DNA of 64,000 nt from Catenisphaera adipataccumulans (lineage in GTDB: Bacteria; Bacillota_I; Bacilli_A; Erysipelotrichales; Erysipelotrichaceae): NCBI RefSeq assembly GCF_014202755.1, contig NZ_JACHHK010000005.1, positions 62,001 to 126,000 on the forward strand. The letters are read 5' to 3'. Of this stretch, positions 14,273-25,849 are shown piece by piece (positions within the stretch are counted from its first letter, which is position 1; every line of letters starts with the position of its first letter). The notes beneath the pieces are model-generated. The model was not told the DNA's origin and searched no databases. It saw nothing but the letters and a program-made list of their open reading frames with translations. A program made the translations under genes and the position numbers.

Positions 14273-15361
14273 ATGAAAGATAAAAAACTGCGGATCATCA
14301 TGTATTCCAGTGCAGATAAAGTGGCCGGTCAGGGAGTCGGCAGCGCATACGAAGAACAAGTGCGTCTGATCAAGGAAGGCGCTTCCGATCTATTTGATGT
14401 GGAGATCAATAACTGGACCAAGAAACCGGATATCCAGCATTTCCATACCGTTGATCCTACTTTCTATGCGAAGATGCAGGATAAAAAAGCCTGCAATATT
14501 GCCTATTGCCATTTTCTGCCTGACACACTGGAAGGCAGCATCAATATTCCGAATTATGCGATGAAAGTCTTTAGCTCTTATGTCGTCAGTTTCTATAAAA
14601 GTGCAGACCGTCTGGTCGTCGTAAATCCGAGCTTTATCGATGATTTGGTGGATTTCGGCATTCCGCGGGAACGGATCTACTATATCCCGAACTATGTATC
14701 CAAAGACGAGTTCTATAAGAAAAGCCGGCAGGCACGAAAACAGCTGCGCGAACATTTTGGCTTCAAAGAAAATGATTTTATTGTCTTTGATGCCGGCCAG
14801 GTACAGACCCGTAAAGGTGTCCTGGATTTTGTGGAAGTTGCCGAACAGCTGCCGGACATTCAATTTGTCTGGGCAGGCGGCTTCTCGTTCGGTAAGATCA
14901 CCGATGGGTATGAGGAATTGAAAAGAGTACAGGAAAATCCGCCGAAGAATGTCCATTTTTTAGGCATCGTGCCGCGGGAACAGATGAATGATCTCTATAA
15001 TATTGCCGATGTGCTCTTTATGCCAAGCTACAATGAATTATTCCCGATGACGATCCTGGAAGCCGTGAACTTACACGTGCCGCTGGTTCTGCGTGATTTG
15101 GATCTTTACAAGGATATTCTGTTCGATCATTATCTCAAAGGAGATAACAATACAGAATTCAAAGAAAAAATTGAGTCCCTGTATAAGGATAAAGAACTGT
15201 ATGCACAATATCAGAATGAATCCAAAGCCATCAGTGACTTCTATTCGAAAGAACATGTACTTTCGATGTGGCGTGAATTTTATTTGAGTGCCTACAAAGA
15301 AAAGCAAGATGCTTTGCTTGCCAAAAAGAAAAATAAAAAGAAAAAGAAGAAAAACAAATAA
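14273..15361 (+). CDS. GT4-family glycosyltransferase, probably glycolipid synthesis
   Basis: 362 residues, GT-B fold, glycosyltransferase family 4. The C-terminal donor-binding half contains NELFPMTILEA, the E-x7-E motif. The sequence resembles the processive or second-sugar glycosyltransferases that extend glucosyl-diacylglycerol in Firmicutes (inference). The last 15 residues are nearly all Lys and Asn, a likely electrostatic membrane anchor. It is first in an operon with a flippase-like membrane protein and a monoglucosyl-diacylglycerol synthase-like enzyme, which supports a role in membrane glycolipid or lipoteichoic-acid anchor synthesis. Confidence 0.85.
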   Translation: MKDKKLRIIMYSSADKVAGQGVGSAYEEQVRLIKEGASDLFDVEINNWTKKPDIQHFHTVDPTFYAKMQDKKACNIAYCHFLPDTLEGSINIPNYAMKVFSSYVVSFYKSADRLVVVNPSFIDDLVDFGIPRERIYYIPNYVSKDEFYKKSRQARKQLREHFGFKENDFIVFDAGQVQTRKGVLDFVEVAEQLPDIQFVWAGGFSFGKITDGYEELKRVQENPPKNVHFLGIVPREQMNDLYNIADVLFMPSYNELFPMTILEAVNLHVPLVLRDLDLYKDILFDHYLKGDNNTEFKEKIESLYKDKELYAQYQNESKAISDFYSKEHVLSMWREFYLSAYKEKQDALLAKKKNKKKKKKNK

Positions 15362-15373
15362 AAAGGACCATCT

Positions 15374-16420
15374 ATGAAAAAACAGAAATATCTCCTGAAC
15401 GTCCTGTTGATCTTAGCACTGACCTTGGTCGTGCTGTGGTACACGTTGAAGGACAACTACAAAGAAGTGATAGGAGCCATCAGACAAATGAATCCAGCCA
15501 GTCTGCTTCTAGTTTTACTTTGGGGAGCTCTTTTTACTGTGGTTTGGGGAATGGCGTATGTAATCTTAGGCAGGAAATATGTGCCGGGGTATAAGATCCG
15601 CAGCGGCATTGCGGTCGCATTTATCGGCGCCTTTTTCTCGGGAATTACGCCCAGCAGCACTGGCGGACAGTTCGGTCAAGTATATGTGATGAAAAAACAA
15701 GGCATCGCGATCAAAGACAGTGTCAGCCTGCTTTGGGCCGATTTTATCGTTTATCAGACGACGATGATGGTTTATGTAACGATCCTGTTTCTGCTGAAAT
15801 ACGCGTATTACAGTGCGCAGTCAGCCTGGTTCAATATCATCCTGCTCGGTTATCTGATCAATCTGCTGGTTATATTGGCACTTTATACCGTGGCGCTGTT
15901 TCCGAAAGCTTATATCAAATTTACCAATTGGCTGGCAAAATTTTTAAGCCGGTTCAAATTCATCAAAGATCCGGAAAAAACCGTGCAGTCCTGGACCCTG
16001 CAGATGACGCAGTTCACCAGTGAGGTGAAGCAGTTATCCAAAGATAAGAAACGCATCGCATTCTGCACGCTGGTCAACATTGTCCGTTTGACCCTGCTGT
16101 ATACCTTGCCGTATGTGATCGCGGTCAGTCTGCATATTCCGATACGCACGGATCAAATCGTTGATGTCATGGCACTGTCCAGCTTTGTGCTGATCGCCAA
16201 CAGTTTTATTCCGATCCCCGGCGCCAGCGGCGGAACGGAAATTGTTTTTTCGCTGCTGTTCGGCGGTTTGATGGGAAAATTGACAGGTGCAGTCATGGTC
16301 CTGTGGCGTTTTTCCACGTTCCATGTCGTACTGCTGATCGGTGCGATCATCTTTGCGTTTGTCAAAAATAAATATGACCGCAAGAAAGATCTGCCGCAAA
16401 TGGAGGAGGAATCATCATGA
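15374..16420 (+). CDS. UPF0104/AglD-type membrane protein (flippase-like)
   Basis: 348 residues with about eight transmembrane helices, of the lysylphosphatidylglycerol-synthase transmembrane (UPF0104) family. Typical motifs are GITPSSTGGQFGQVYVMKKQG and the later PIPGASGGTE. It has no C-terminal synthetase domain, so it is not MprF. Such stand-alone membrane domains are proposed to flip or help transfer lipid-linked sugars. It lies 12 bp after one glycosyltransferase and overlaps the next by 4 bp. Confidence 0.85.
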   Translation: MKKQKYLLNVLLILALTLVVLWYTLKDNYKEVIGAIRQMNPASLLLVLLWGALFTVVWGMAYVILGRKYVPGYKIRSGIAVAFIGAFFSGITPSSTGGQFGQVYVMKKQGIAIKDSVSLLWADFIVYQTTMMVYVTILFLLKYAYYSAQSAWFNIILLGYLINLLVILALYTVALFPKAYIKFTNWLAKFLSRFKFIKDPEKTVQSWTLQMTQFTSEVKQLSKDKKRIAFCTLVNIVRLTLLYTLPYVIAVSLHIPIRTDQIVDVMALSSFVLIANSFIPIPGASGGTEIVFSLLFGGLMGKLTGAVMVLWRFSTFHVVLLIGAIIFAFVKNKYDRKKDLPQMEEESS

Positions 16421-18396
16421 GGATCGGTATGTTTTCCGATGCTTATTTACCGGATATCAATGGTGTCGTTTCCAGCATCGCTACGCTGAAAGCAGCACTC
16501 GAAAAACTAGGCCATACGGTTTTTGTCATTTCCAACCATAAAGGGGTGGCAGCCGAATACGATGAAGAAAATCATATTCTGCGTCTGCCGGGCATCGAGT
16601 GGAAAAAAATGTACGGTTATAAGATGTCCAGCCCCATTCAGATCGCGGGCGAGGAATACGTGCGGAAAATGGACTTAGATGTCATTCACGTACACACGGA
16701 AGTCGGGATCGGCGTTTTTGCGCGTCAGACAGCCAAAAAACTGCATATCCCTGTCGTGTATACGTACCATACACTGTATGAAGACTACATGCACTATGTG
16801 AATCCGCGTCATATACCGACGATCGATAAATATGGCAAGAAGGCCATCCGCTTTTTTTCCAGACAAGCAGGCAACGGCCCGCAGGCCGTCATTGCTCCAA
16901 GCAATAAAACCAAAAAAGCATTGGAGCGCTATGGCGTGATCACACCCATATATATCGTTCCGACTGGTATTGATTTAAGCGAATTTAAACGGGAAAACCT
17001 GGATGCGGATCGTATCCGTGCCACACGTGCTGCCTGCGGCATGCGCGAAGAAGACCATGTGGTCGTCTTTGTCGGCCGGATCGCGAAGGAAAAATGCATT
17101 GAAATGCCGATCGAATCGTTAAAATATACGCAGGATCGATCCATCAAATTGGTCATTGTCGGCGGCGGTACGGACATGAAATTTTATCAGGATTTGGTGA
17201 AATCTTATGGACTAGAAGATCGTATACACTTTACCGGCCGCATAGATAAGCAGGATATTGCCTACTATTATTCTGCCTTTGATGCATTTGTCTCTGCTTC
17301 ATTGAGCGAGACCCAGGGCATGACTTATCTGGAAGCACTGGCCAGCGAAGTGCCGGTCTTCGGCCGCCGTGACGAAGTGCTCGACGGACTGGTAGAAGAA
17401 GATGTGACCGGCTATTATTTTGATGACGCTCATGAATTGGCGGAAAAATTTGACCGGTTCTTTGCGAAAAGCGAGGCTGAACGCGAAGCGATGCGCCCGG
17501 CATGTCTGGAAAAAACCAAACCGTACGATACAGAACTGTTTGCCAATAAGGTCCTGGCTGTTTATAAACAAGCCATCGATGACTATAACATGGCTTATAT
17601 TGTAGATAAAATGCATTTTCTTGATGATTTTGTCCAACTGACCGTACGTCGCAAACGAAGCAATGCTGAACCAATGAACATCCTGGTGCCGGAGGAAGAT
17701 GTCTATGCGATGAAGATCTCCGTCAACACGATGCTCGACAGCTATTACATTGAAAACTATCTGGCGATGCAGGAATTCTACAAAGCGTTCCGCATCGAAA
17801 AGCGTCGTGTCGCAGCCCAGGATTACACGTGCTATGAAATCAAACGTCACTGTATGATGTATCTGAATCTAGAAGAAGATCTGGCTGATGCCATCGTGGC
17901 GACGTTGAGCGAGCGAAATCTGCTGGATGACCGCAGGTATGCCGAAAACAAAGCAGAAGTCTGGCAGGCTTACGGCATGAGCAAGAAAAAGATCCGGATG
18001 CGCCTGCGGAAAAAAGGTGTGCCGGAAGAATACATCGATCTGGCTGTTGATACGCTGCCGGATGATATTGAGGAAGAAAATGCCAGAAATATGGCCAAAT
18101 CATTGGTCCGTACGATCCATGCGCAGTCGCAGCGAAACGGCCGGCAGAGCCTGATCCGAAAGCTGGTCAATAAAGGATATACGTATGATATAGCTAAAAA
18201 AGCCGGCGAAAGCGTAACATTGGACCTGGATGAAAAGGAAGCGCTGCAGGAAGCGATCGAAAAAGCAAAACGCCTGTATGCCAGCTATGAGGACGAGTCA
18301 AAACGCCTTCAGAAAATTCGTTTATATTGTATGAGAAAGGGATTTACTTCTTCGCAGATCGAAGAAGAATTGGAGAGTGAAGCTACGAATGATTAA
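16417..18396 (+). CDS. Diacylglycerol glucosyltransferase-like GT4 enzyme fused to RecX
   Basis: 659 residues in one uninterrupted frame. Residues 1 to about 395 are a GT4 glycosyltransferase close to 1,2-diacylglycerol 3-glucosyltransferases. It starts MRIGMFSDAYLPDINGV, has the acceptor-side THTEVGIG-like patch near 93-100, and the E-x7-E pair at Glu298 and Glu306. Residues about 465-655 are a complete RecX domain (CYEIKRHCMMYL, then ERNLLDDRRYAEN, then SKKKIRMRLRKKGV, and further three-helix repeats). RecX normally restrains RecA filaments. No stop or frameshift is seen between the parts. ATGA overlap with the upstream gene and an 8-bp overlap with yhaM indicate tight coupling. Confidence 0.88.
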   Translation: MRIGMFSDAYLPDINGVVSSIATLKAALEKLGHTVFVISNHKGVAAEYDEENHILRLPGIEWKKMYGYKMSSPIQIAGEEYVRKMDLDVIHVHTEVGIGVFARQTAKKLHIPVVYTYHTLYEDYMHYVNPRHIPTIDKYGKKAIRFFSRQAGNGPQAVIAPSNKTKKALERYGVITPIYIVPTGIDLSEFKRENLDADRIRATRAACGMREEDHVVVFVGRIAKEKCIEMPIESLKYTQDRSIKLVIVGGGTDMKFYQDLVKSYGLEDRIHFTGRIDKQDIAYYYSAFDAFVSASLSETQGMTYLEALASEVPVFGRRDEVLDGLVEEDVTGYYFDDAHELAEKFDRFFAKSEAEREAMRPACLEKTKPYDTELFANKVLAVYKQAIDDYNMAYIVDKMHFLDDFVQLTVRRKRSNAEPMNILVPEEDVYAMKISVNTMLDSYYIENYLAMQEFYKAFRIEKRRVAAQDYTCYEIKRHCMMYLNLEEDLADAIVATLSERNLLDDRRYAENKAEVWQAYGMSKKKIRMRLRKKGVPEEYIDLAVDTLPDDIEEENARNMAKSLVRTIHAQSQRNGRQSLIRKLVNKGYTYDIAKKAGESVTLDLDEKEALQEAIEKAKRLYASYEDESKRLQKIRLYCMRKGFTSSQIEEELESEATND

Positions 18397-19324
18397 AGAT
18401 ATTCATGAGGAAGGAAAAATCAAAATAAACGCATTGATCACGAAATGCGATGTGGGAAAGACAGCCAAAGGCAACCCGTATTTATCCATGACTCTGCAGG
18501 ATGCCAGCGGCATTCTGGATACGAAGTATTGGAATCTGACCGAAGAGCAGATCAAGACTTTGCATGTCGGTATGGTCGTGGAAGCCGTTGGTGATGTGAT
18601 TTTCTACCGCAATGCCTTTCAGCTGCGTGTTCATAAAATGCATGAACTGCCGGATGAAAAGATCACGGACTATGTCCGCCGGGCTCCGGAAAGCGATGTC
18701 CAGCTGCATCAGGATGTTGCAGATCTGCTGAATCAGATGAATGATGAAACGTTGTACATGATTACTTCAACGATATTGGAACGTTATGAGGAAACGTTCT
18801 ATACCTATCCGGCCGCAACCAAGAATCATCATAACTATGTCGGCGGCCTGGCTTTTCATTCCGTGACCATGGCAAAGGAAGCCCTGGAGATCTGCGGCCA
18901 TTATCCATGGCTGAACCAGGATCTGCTGATTGCCGGATGCCTGCTGCACGATGTGGGCAAGACCATCGAATTGTCGGATCCTGTCCTGCCGGAATATACG
19001 ATTAAAGGCAACTTGATCGGCCACATCAGTCTGGTCTACAACATCATTCACGATACAGCGAAAGAACTGCACGTAGATGAACAGGAAAACGTCATGCTTC
19101 TGGAGCATATGATCCTGTCTCATCATGGCAAGCATGAATTCGGTTCGCCGGTGCTGCCGATGATCCCGGAAGCGGAAGTGCTGACCTTATTGGACAATTT
19201 AGATTCACGTATGTTCATGATGAAACAGAGCCTGGATGCGACCAAGCCGGGAGAGATCGGACCGCGGGTCTTTGCGCTGGAAAACCGTATGATCTATCAT
19301 GCCGGCAAGGAGGAAGACCAATGA
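18389..19324 (+). CDS. yhaM: 3'-5' exoribonuclease YhaM
   Basis: 311 residues from ATG 18389; a GTG at 18377 is possible but too close to GGAG. The N-terminal OB fold (about 8-90) matches the nucleic-acid-binding domain of YhaM. The C-terminal HD domain has HNYVGGLAFHSVTM and LLHDVGK with the metal-binding His-Asp pair. YhaM is a Gram-positive Mn-dependent 3'-5' exonuclease acting on short single-stranded RNA or DNA. Its start overlaps the glycosyltransferase-RecX stop. Confidence 0.92.
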   Translation: MIKDIHEEGKIKINALITKCDVGKTAKGNPYLSMTLQDASGILDTKYWNLTEEQIKTLHVGMVVEAVGDVIFYRNAFQLRVHKMHELPDEKITDYVRRAPESDVQLHQDVADLLNQMNDETLYMITSTILERYEETFYTYPAATKNHHNYVGGLAFHSVTMAKEALEICGHYPWLNQDLLIAGCLLHDVGKTIELSDPVLPEYTIKGNLIGHISLVYNIIHDTAKELHVDEQENVMLLEHMILSHHGKHEFGSPVLPMIPEAEVLTLLDNLDSRMFMMKQSLDATKPGEIGPRVFALENRMIYHAGKEEDQ

Positions 19325-25215: not shown

Positions 25216-25292
25216 GCGCCCATAGCTCAATTGGATAGAGCGTTTGACTACGGATCAAAAGGTTGCGGGTTCGACTCCTACTGGGCGCGCCA
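25216..25292 (+). tRNA. tRNA-Arg(ACG)
   Basis: Acceptor GCGCCCA/TGGGCGC, anticodon stem TTTGA/TCAAA with loop CTACGGA giving anticodon ACG. T-arm GCGGGTTCGACTCCT is present, and CCA is encoded at 25290-25292. The A34 is expected to be edited to inosine. Confidence 0.93.
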
Positions 25293-25313
25293 TTTATTTT
25301 TTTTGAAAATAAG

Positions 25314-25390
25314 CGGGACGTAGCACAGCTTGGTAGTGCACCTGATTTGGGATCAGGGGGTCACAGGTTCAAATCCTGCCGTCCCGACCA
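25314..25390 (+). tRNA. tRNA-Pro(TGG)
   Basis: Acceptor CGGGACG/CGTCCCG, anticodon loop TTTGGGA between CCTGA and TCAGG gives TGG. CCA is encoded. Confidence 0.94.
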
Positions 25391-25395
25391 TCTAC

Positions 25396-25472
25396 GGCTG
25401 GATAGCTTAGTTGGCTAGAGCATCCGGTTCATACCCGGAAGGTCGTGAGTTCGAGTCTCACTCCAGCCACCA
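25396..25472 (+). tRNA. Elongator tRNA-Met(CAT)
   Basis: Acceptor GGCTGGA/TCCAGCC, anticodon stem TCCGG/CCGGA with loop TTCATAC. The GGTTCATACCC anticodon arm is the usual elongator tRNA-Met form. CCA is encoded. Confidence 0.85.
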
Positions 25473-25481
25473 ACTGGTTTT

Positions 25482-25558
25482 GGACCCTTAGCTCAGTTGG
25501 TCAGAGCATCCGGCTCATAACCGGCGGGTCGTAGGTTCGAGTCCTACAGGGTCCACCA
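25482..25558 (+). tRNA. tRNA-Ile2(CAT), predicted lysidine-modified
   Basis: Acceptor GGACCCT/AGGGTCC and anticodon arm GGCTCATAACC closely follow known tRNA-Ile(CAU) of Bacillus and Mycoplasma rather than elongator Met. C4-G69 and C5-G68 pairs, recognised by TilS, are present. C34 would be converted to lysidine to read AUA. CCA is encoded. Confidence 0.8.
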
Positions 25559-25580
25559 ATATATATAAACTTCCTTACTT

Positions 25581-25671
25581 GGAGAAGTACCCAAGTGGTT
25601 GAAGGGTCCGGTCTTGAAAACCGGTAGGTCGTTCGCGCGGCGCCTGGGTTCGAATCCCAGCTTCTCCGCCA
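25581..25671 (+). tRNA. tRNA-Ser(TGA)
   Basis: Acceptor GGAGAAG/CTTCTCC, anticodon loop CTTGAAA gives TGA. A long variable arm (TCGTTCGCGCGGCGCC region) marks a class II serine tRNA. CCA is encoded. Confidence 0.93.
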
Positions 25672-25693
25672 TTTATAAAATTTATATTCACAT

Positions 25694-25770
<77 letters not shown>

Positions 25771-25773
25771 AGT

Positions 25774-25849
25774 GGTCTCATAGCTCAGTTGGTAGAGCAA
25801 GGGACTGAAAATCCCTGTGTCGTTGGTTCAATTCCGACTGAGACCACCA
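25774..25849 (+). tRNA. tRNA-Phe(GAA)
   Basis: Acceptor GGTCTCA/TGAGACC, anticodon loop CTGAAAA gives GAA. CCA is encoded. Last tRNA of the cluster. Confidence 0.94.

Follow-up and report, generated by a model that had tools for sequence, protein, structure and literature searches.

A GT4 glycosyltransferase–RecX fusion in Catenisphaera adipataccumulans and most sampled genomes of its order, and its likely origin from overlapping operon neighbours

The locus

Within the window, by which is meant the whole stretch of 64,000 nucleotides of Catenisphaera adipataccumulans DNA that was analysed, a single open frame (16417-18396, + strand) encodes a protein of 659 amino acids without an internal stop, in which a GT4 glycosyltransferase (GT) half is followed by a RecX half. 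The features of the frame and its neighbours are these:

14273-15361 (+): second GT4 glycosyltransferase gene, IagA/BgsA- and Dgs-like (NF053513, 154.3 bits; NF049987, 137.1 bits; both below cut-off)
15374-16420 (+): flippase-like membrane protein, LPG_synthase_TM (PF03706, 114.4 bits; TIGR00374, 92 bits)
16402-16409 (+): ribosome-binding site GGAGGAGG, upstream of the ATG at 16417 (sequence inspection)
16417-17592 (+): GT4 glycosyltransferase half, residues 1-392, containing E298-x7-E306 (Pfam and NCBIfam matches)
17587-17598 (+): junction, where GT helix 372-391 passes into RecX strand 394-402 without a linker (predicted model and alignment)
17599-18396 (+): RecX half, residues 395-659, and stop codon (Pfam and NCBIfam matches; PDB profile search)
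18389-19324 (+): YhaM-like nuclease gene (NF010007, 313.6 bits; cut-off of 460 not attained)

Since the fusion shares nucleotides with the genes on both sides, its ATG overlapping the stop codon of the flippase gene and its 3' end the ATG of yhaM, the second GT4 gene, the flippase, the fusion and yhaM form a tight operon; the second GT4 gene holds the same position in many relatives. The preliminary description had read one 659-codon frame joining GT4 and RecX domains with no stop, followed by yhaM. The frame and the Pfam and NCBIfam matches agree with this reading, and the downstream gene is indeed YhaM-like. The description had also proposed a search for a second, free-standing recX, and none was found in the host genome, in which the fused RecX is the only RecX found and a single recA is present (520.7 bits against a cut-off of 325.3). 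Elsewhere in the window lie seven consecutive tRNA genes (25216-25849, +), and a 99-amino-acid frame on the opposite strand (25501-25800), which overlies them, was rejected as spurious.

The two halves of the protein

The GT half is made up of Glyco_transf_4 (residues 14-188, 109 bits against a Pfam cut-off of 28.5) and Glycos_transf_1 (residues 205-358, 101.5 bits). Its best NCBIfam model is NF049988, alpha-monoglucosyldiacylglycerol synthase, with which it has the GT4 domains in common over residues 1-392; as the score of 259.5 bits is below the cut-off of 400, the half is termed related to this family rather than a member of it, and it differs further in carrying RecX at its C-terminus. Five residues (H118, R221, K226, E298 and E306) are invariant across 28 aligned fusions, the last two spanning the E-x7-E motif of GT4.

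The RecX half contains RecX_HTH2 (residues 504-543, 31.1 bits) and RecX_HTH3 (residues 605-650, 42.8 bits), both above the Pfam cut-off of 26, together with RecX_HTH1 slightly below it (24.8 bits). Its best NCBIfam model, NF010733 RecX, matches residues 468-656 with 86.1 bits against a cut-off of 240, a cut-off that is attained by none of 395 genomes of the host class and so gives no separation there. With 265 residues (about 394-659) the half has approximately the whole length of a Bacillus-type RecX, and the alignment of the RecX structure 3d5l_A to residues 395-600 in the PDB profile search indicates that the N-terminal strands are included, which the predicted model places at 394-425. RecX of Bacillus subtilis (YfhG), with 264 residues (PMC3527212), is like the C-terminal half in length and domain make-up, whereas it is free-standing and the host RecX shares its chain with a glycosyltransferase and its operon with yhaM.

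Fused proteins keep to a narrow range of lengths, 641-666 amino acids without a linker in 63 sequences, and across these 63 the conserved residues of the GT half and of the RecX half are both retained, with one fused row (L131) missing the conserved L530 and G534. In the AlphaFold2 model, built with 28 sequences (mean pLDDT 88.1, pTM 0.66), both domains are well predicted and their mutual orientation is not fixed; the top Foldseek matches are GT4 enzyme structures.

Distribution of the fused form

How widely is this architecture found? Among the matches listed for a whole-protein query, 146 genomes out of 195 in the host family have a long frame of 625-794 amino acids spanning both halves, a figure that includes G412 and G478, both listed with stops within the matched stretch; G440 (633 amino acids) and G553 (668) add further fused frames. 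In the sister family the long frame is found in 40 of 43 genomes, the exceptions being G554, where the frame is broken, G558, where it starts near a contig end, and G559, which has only a partial GT. Outside these families, among the matches listed in a sample of 395 class genomes, RecX frames reach at most 317 amino acids. A second survey was aimed at the phylum and is class-wide in scope, its 295 genomes all belonging to the class of the host; it agrees, with the exception of one weak match (2.3e-4) in a 483-amino-acid frame with stops. Thus the survey of GT4-RecX fusions that the preliminary description had called for finds the fusion order-wide, in gut-associated bacteria and in most sampled genomes of the host order, where the genomes are phylogenetically related and their counts are not counts of events. 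Named records with the fusion include Absicoccus porci, Holdemanella porci, Faecalicoccus acidiformans, Amedibacillus dolichus, Erysipelothrix tonsillarum, Breznakia pachnodae and Sharpea azabuensis. The architecture is therefore visible in public sequences; in the literature searched, mainly journals open without subscription and judged for the most part by title and opening of the abstract, no paper describing a GT-RecX protein was found.

Several host-family genomes fall into none of the classes described here, among them six with no RecX match (G397, G541, G550, G443, G513 and G514), and some of them are incomplete. Two others, G236 and G351, listed as 98-99% complete, gave zero first-look candidates for the fusion and for RecX. 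A record titled Streptobacillus notomytis contains a sequence closely related to the GT half (L225, 7998-9302, +); this genus does not belong to the host group, and the sequence is possibly there by transfer. Two single frames of 780 and 759 amino acids (L213, 6552-8891, + and L215, 6930-9206, +) contain two tandem GT4 glycosyltransferases each, a further fusion in which a relative of the GT half takes part.

With regard to the number of events, single-domain trees of GT and of RecX do not unite all fused rows in one clade. In a joint GT and RecX tree of 65 rows each of the two families forms one clade (support 99), and both families with the unfused locus L216 form one clade (support 99), the branching among the three being unresolved. 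A constraint uniting the fused-lineage rows is not rejected (AU p 0.286). These trees are compatible with one fusion, with L216 lying outside it or re-split, and with two separate fusions, both of which are possible.

Origin from overlapping genes

The origin of the fusion can be read from loci in which the genes are separate. Four outgroup loci, two from family f8 (L124 and L128) and two named records (L221 and L223), share the order GT-recX-yhaM and homologous halves with the fusion, and a flippase is additionally seen in L128 and L223. They differ in that GT and recX are two genes, overlapping out of frame, and in that recX starts at a GTG behind a ribosome site of its own. The codons for E-V-Y-K/Q-R near the end of GT hold a GAGGT or GGAGG site, followed by the GTG start of recX in the other frame, and the GT stop codon comes a few codons further on. 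Fused proteins retain the V-Y of this old overlap, nearly or fully invariant, and RecX then follows without a gap. The comparison supports the merger of neighbouring operon genes, and a frame shift inside the GT/recX overlap would be its simplest route.

With the frames joined, the signals for separate translation of recX have largely gone. All 4 split outgroup loci have a strong SD site at the old recX start, as against 3 of 120 fused loci (not deduplicated), or 11/120 when weaker motifs are counted. None of 148 in-frame start-type codons round the junction, in 105 distinct fused genes, has an SD-like site; for comparison, such sites are found at 67 of 104 true starts and at 85 of 3451 other start-type codons in fused genes. 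The loss of the recX ribosome site together with the lack of an internal start signal leads to the expectation of a single polypeptide, and an internal restart yielding free RecX was discarded as a candidate for want of any such signal at the junction.

Fate of the separated halves

Forty-eight genomes were selected as exceptions or comparisons. In 21 of these 48 a free RecX frame of 268-308 amino acids is found apart from any GT; RecX sits beside yhaM, and GT and flippase are usually both absent. With two genomes in which GT has shrunk to a stub before RecX (G485 and G403, judged by length and by the lack of any remaining Pfam GT domain, a poor alignment of stub to fusion having been set aside), one with an extended RecX (G497) and one with RecX in two pieces (G520), the genomes without a fused working GT come to 25. 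For 22 of the 25 the best whole-fusion match is no better than about 1e-26, and hence no close GT is left. Plain GT loss is too simple an account of G396, G431 and G545, each of which has a GT4 homologue elsewhere in its genome (33-36% identity over about 390 residues); these are therefore counted as having lost the fused GT with a separate GT present.

The converse and the intermediate cases are also seen. G415 keeps GT (402 amino acids) with no RecX shown. Re-splits occur in G414 and G465, of one genus, with the RecX of G414, a further one of the 48, having GT adjoining; in L197, where GT and recX meet in an ATGA overlap; and in G434, where the free RecX frame has just 207 amino acids. Either re-splitting or a frame error may account for G482 (GT 406, RecX 260 amino acids) and L191.

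What accompanies each half differs. Of the 25 genomes that have no fused working GT, 24 lack the operon flippase; so do 5 of 14 hand-picked genomes retaining GT, and these make the tie between GT and flippase a loose one. RecX lies directly before yhaM in 115/115 fused, 19/19 RecX-only (GT-stub loci included) and 10/10 split loci with enough sequence, and in 0/44 loci of other families; yhaM was identified by phmmer throughout, and the same genome may count twice. In L118, L125 and L130 yhaM was found, not adjoining recX. The GT half thus tends to vanish where the flippase has gone, and the RecX half stays with yhaM. The gene content of these loci documents that either half can be lost, kept or separated independently of the other, as two separate functions in one chain would predict.

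Two single cases may be recorded here. The RecX of G497 (L110, 6003-7292, -) has an extra N-terminal stretch of about 160 amino acids with three similar segments, amphipathic-helix-like in character; eight other genomes of the genus match only from query residue 146-160, that is RecX alone, so the extension is a single case. In G545 (L244, 847-2730, -) a glycosyltransferase of the same kind runs in frame into a hydrophobic, membrane-protein-like C-terminus, with RecX and flippase kept elsewhere in the genome.

Divergence of the fused RecX

When pairs of the same YhaM divergence are compared, fused pairs have a median RecX divergence no greater than that of unfused pairs up to a YhaM distance of 0.55, and a similar one beyond it. 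For instance, at YhaM distances of 0.4-0.5 the medians are 0.63 for fused (n=803) and 0.70 for unfused pairs (n=31), to be read with the pairs not being independent and with distances of about 0.75-0.8 being near saturation. Decay of the RecX half was rejected on this basis, since the fused RecX diverges no faster than free RecX. The preliminary description had offered, as one reading, that the fusion reflects gene order without function. Gene order is borne out as the origin by the adjacent, overlapping GT and recX of the outgroups; "without function" does not hold for the halves, given the residues conserved in both across the 63 fused sequences and the unaccelerated divergence of RecX.

Why the two halves share one chain

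The best explanation, to which we give a probability of roughly 0.7, is an old fusion of operon neighbours in which the halves work independently, with a membrane location of RecX as a possible by-product. In the ancestral operon, (flippase)-GT-recX-yhaM, recX would have started out of frame within the 3' end of GT; the two frames would then have become one, at the base of the host order or close to it, giving one polypeptide. The N-terminal half would make glucosyl-diacylglycerol at the inner membrane face for the neighbouring GT and flippase, and the C-terminal half would modulate RecA filaments in the manner of Bacillus RecX, neither depending chemically on the other. Fusion would fix the two halves at a one-to-one ratio and, should the GT half be membrane-bound, would place RecX at the membrane too, a side effect that cells would tolerate. 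What carries this reading, at the level of sequence, is the split operon of the outgroups, the merged frame, the lost recX ribosome site, the conservation of both halves and their separate losses. Diacylglycerol is the probable acceptor by analogy with the nearest family and from the adjacent flippase and second GT, and membrane attachment is suggested by the nearest family and by a related enzyme (PMC6506492). Three things count against this explanation: the fusion has endured across two families and has seldom re-split, which is more than mere neutrality might predict; both halves score below their NCBIfam cut-offs; and the GT-flippase tie is loose. Persistence over two families means that the fusion is at least harmless, and it is compatible with a slight advantage, for example from fixed stoichiometry or from a membrane position of RecX.

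An unlikely alternative makes that position the purpose: the GT half would keep RecX at the inner membrane to act on RecA at that site, for instance on single-stranded DNA entering the cell, or the lipid state would gate RecX. As no internal start was found, RecX goes where GT goes, and the absence of a linker and the constant length fit such a tether, as do the foci of B. subtilis RecX on the nucleoid and poles during competence (PMC3527212) and the binding of a related glycolipid synthase to the membrane via an amphipathic helix (PMC6506492). However, RecX is retained without GT in many genomes, re-splits occur, the G485 and G403 stubs retain no recognisable GT domain and the model leaves the domain orientation unfixed. 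Nothing in the genome comparison indicates that RecX has to be at the membrane; that position would follow if the GT half is membrane-bound. More doubtful again is the bolder form, in which the sole RecX in most of the host order is anchored by a GT half acting as a lipid-sensing tether that keeps it at the inner membrane and so restricts the control of RecA to nearby DNA.

It is improbable that the RecX half has given up its action on RecA for a new role, for instance that of a scaffold for the glycosyltransferase or a regulator of it. The low score to NF010733 (86.1 bits) and the residues missing from L131 would suit this account, but RecX survives where GT is lost, its divergence at a given YhaM distance is no higher in fused than in unfused pairs, and recA is present in the host genome. 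Finally, a missed stop or frame error in the host assembly, which could in principle join by a single base what in the outgroups are two genes, is refuted as the source by independent related genomes with the same long frame (146/195 in the host family, among the matches listed, and 40/43 in the sister family).

Implications

The finding is mainly that of a clear, old fusion of operon neighbours whose origin is readable in overlapping genes. In most sampled genomes of the host order RecX belongs to a lipid enzyme, a fact that would escape an annotation made from one half or the other; deletion of recX in a fused species would also take out the glycosyltransferase, and vice versa. The fused, re-split and half-lost forms represent a natural set for asking whether RecX works away from the nucleoid.
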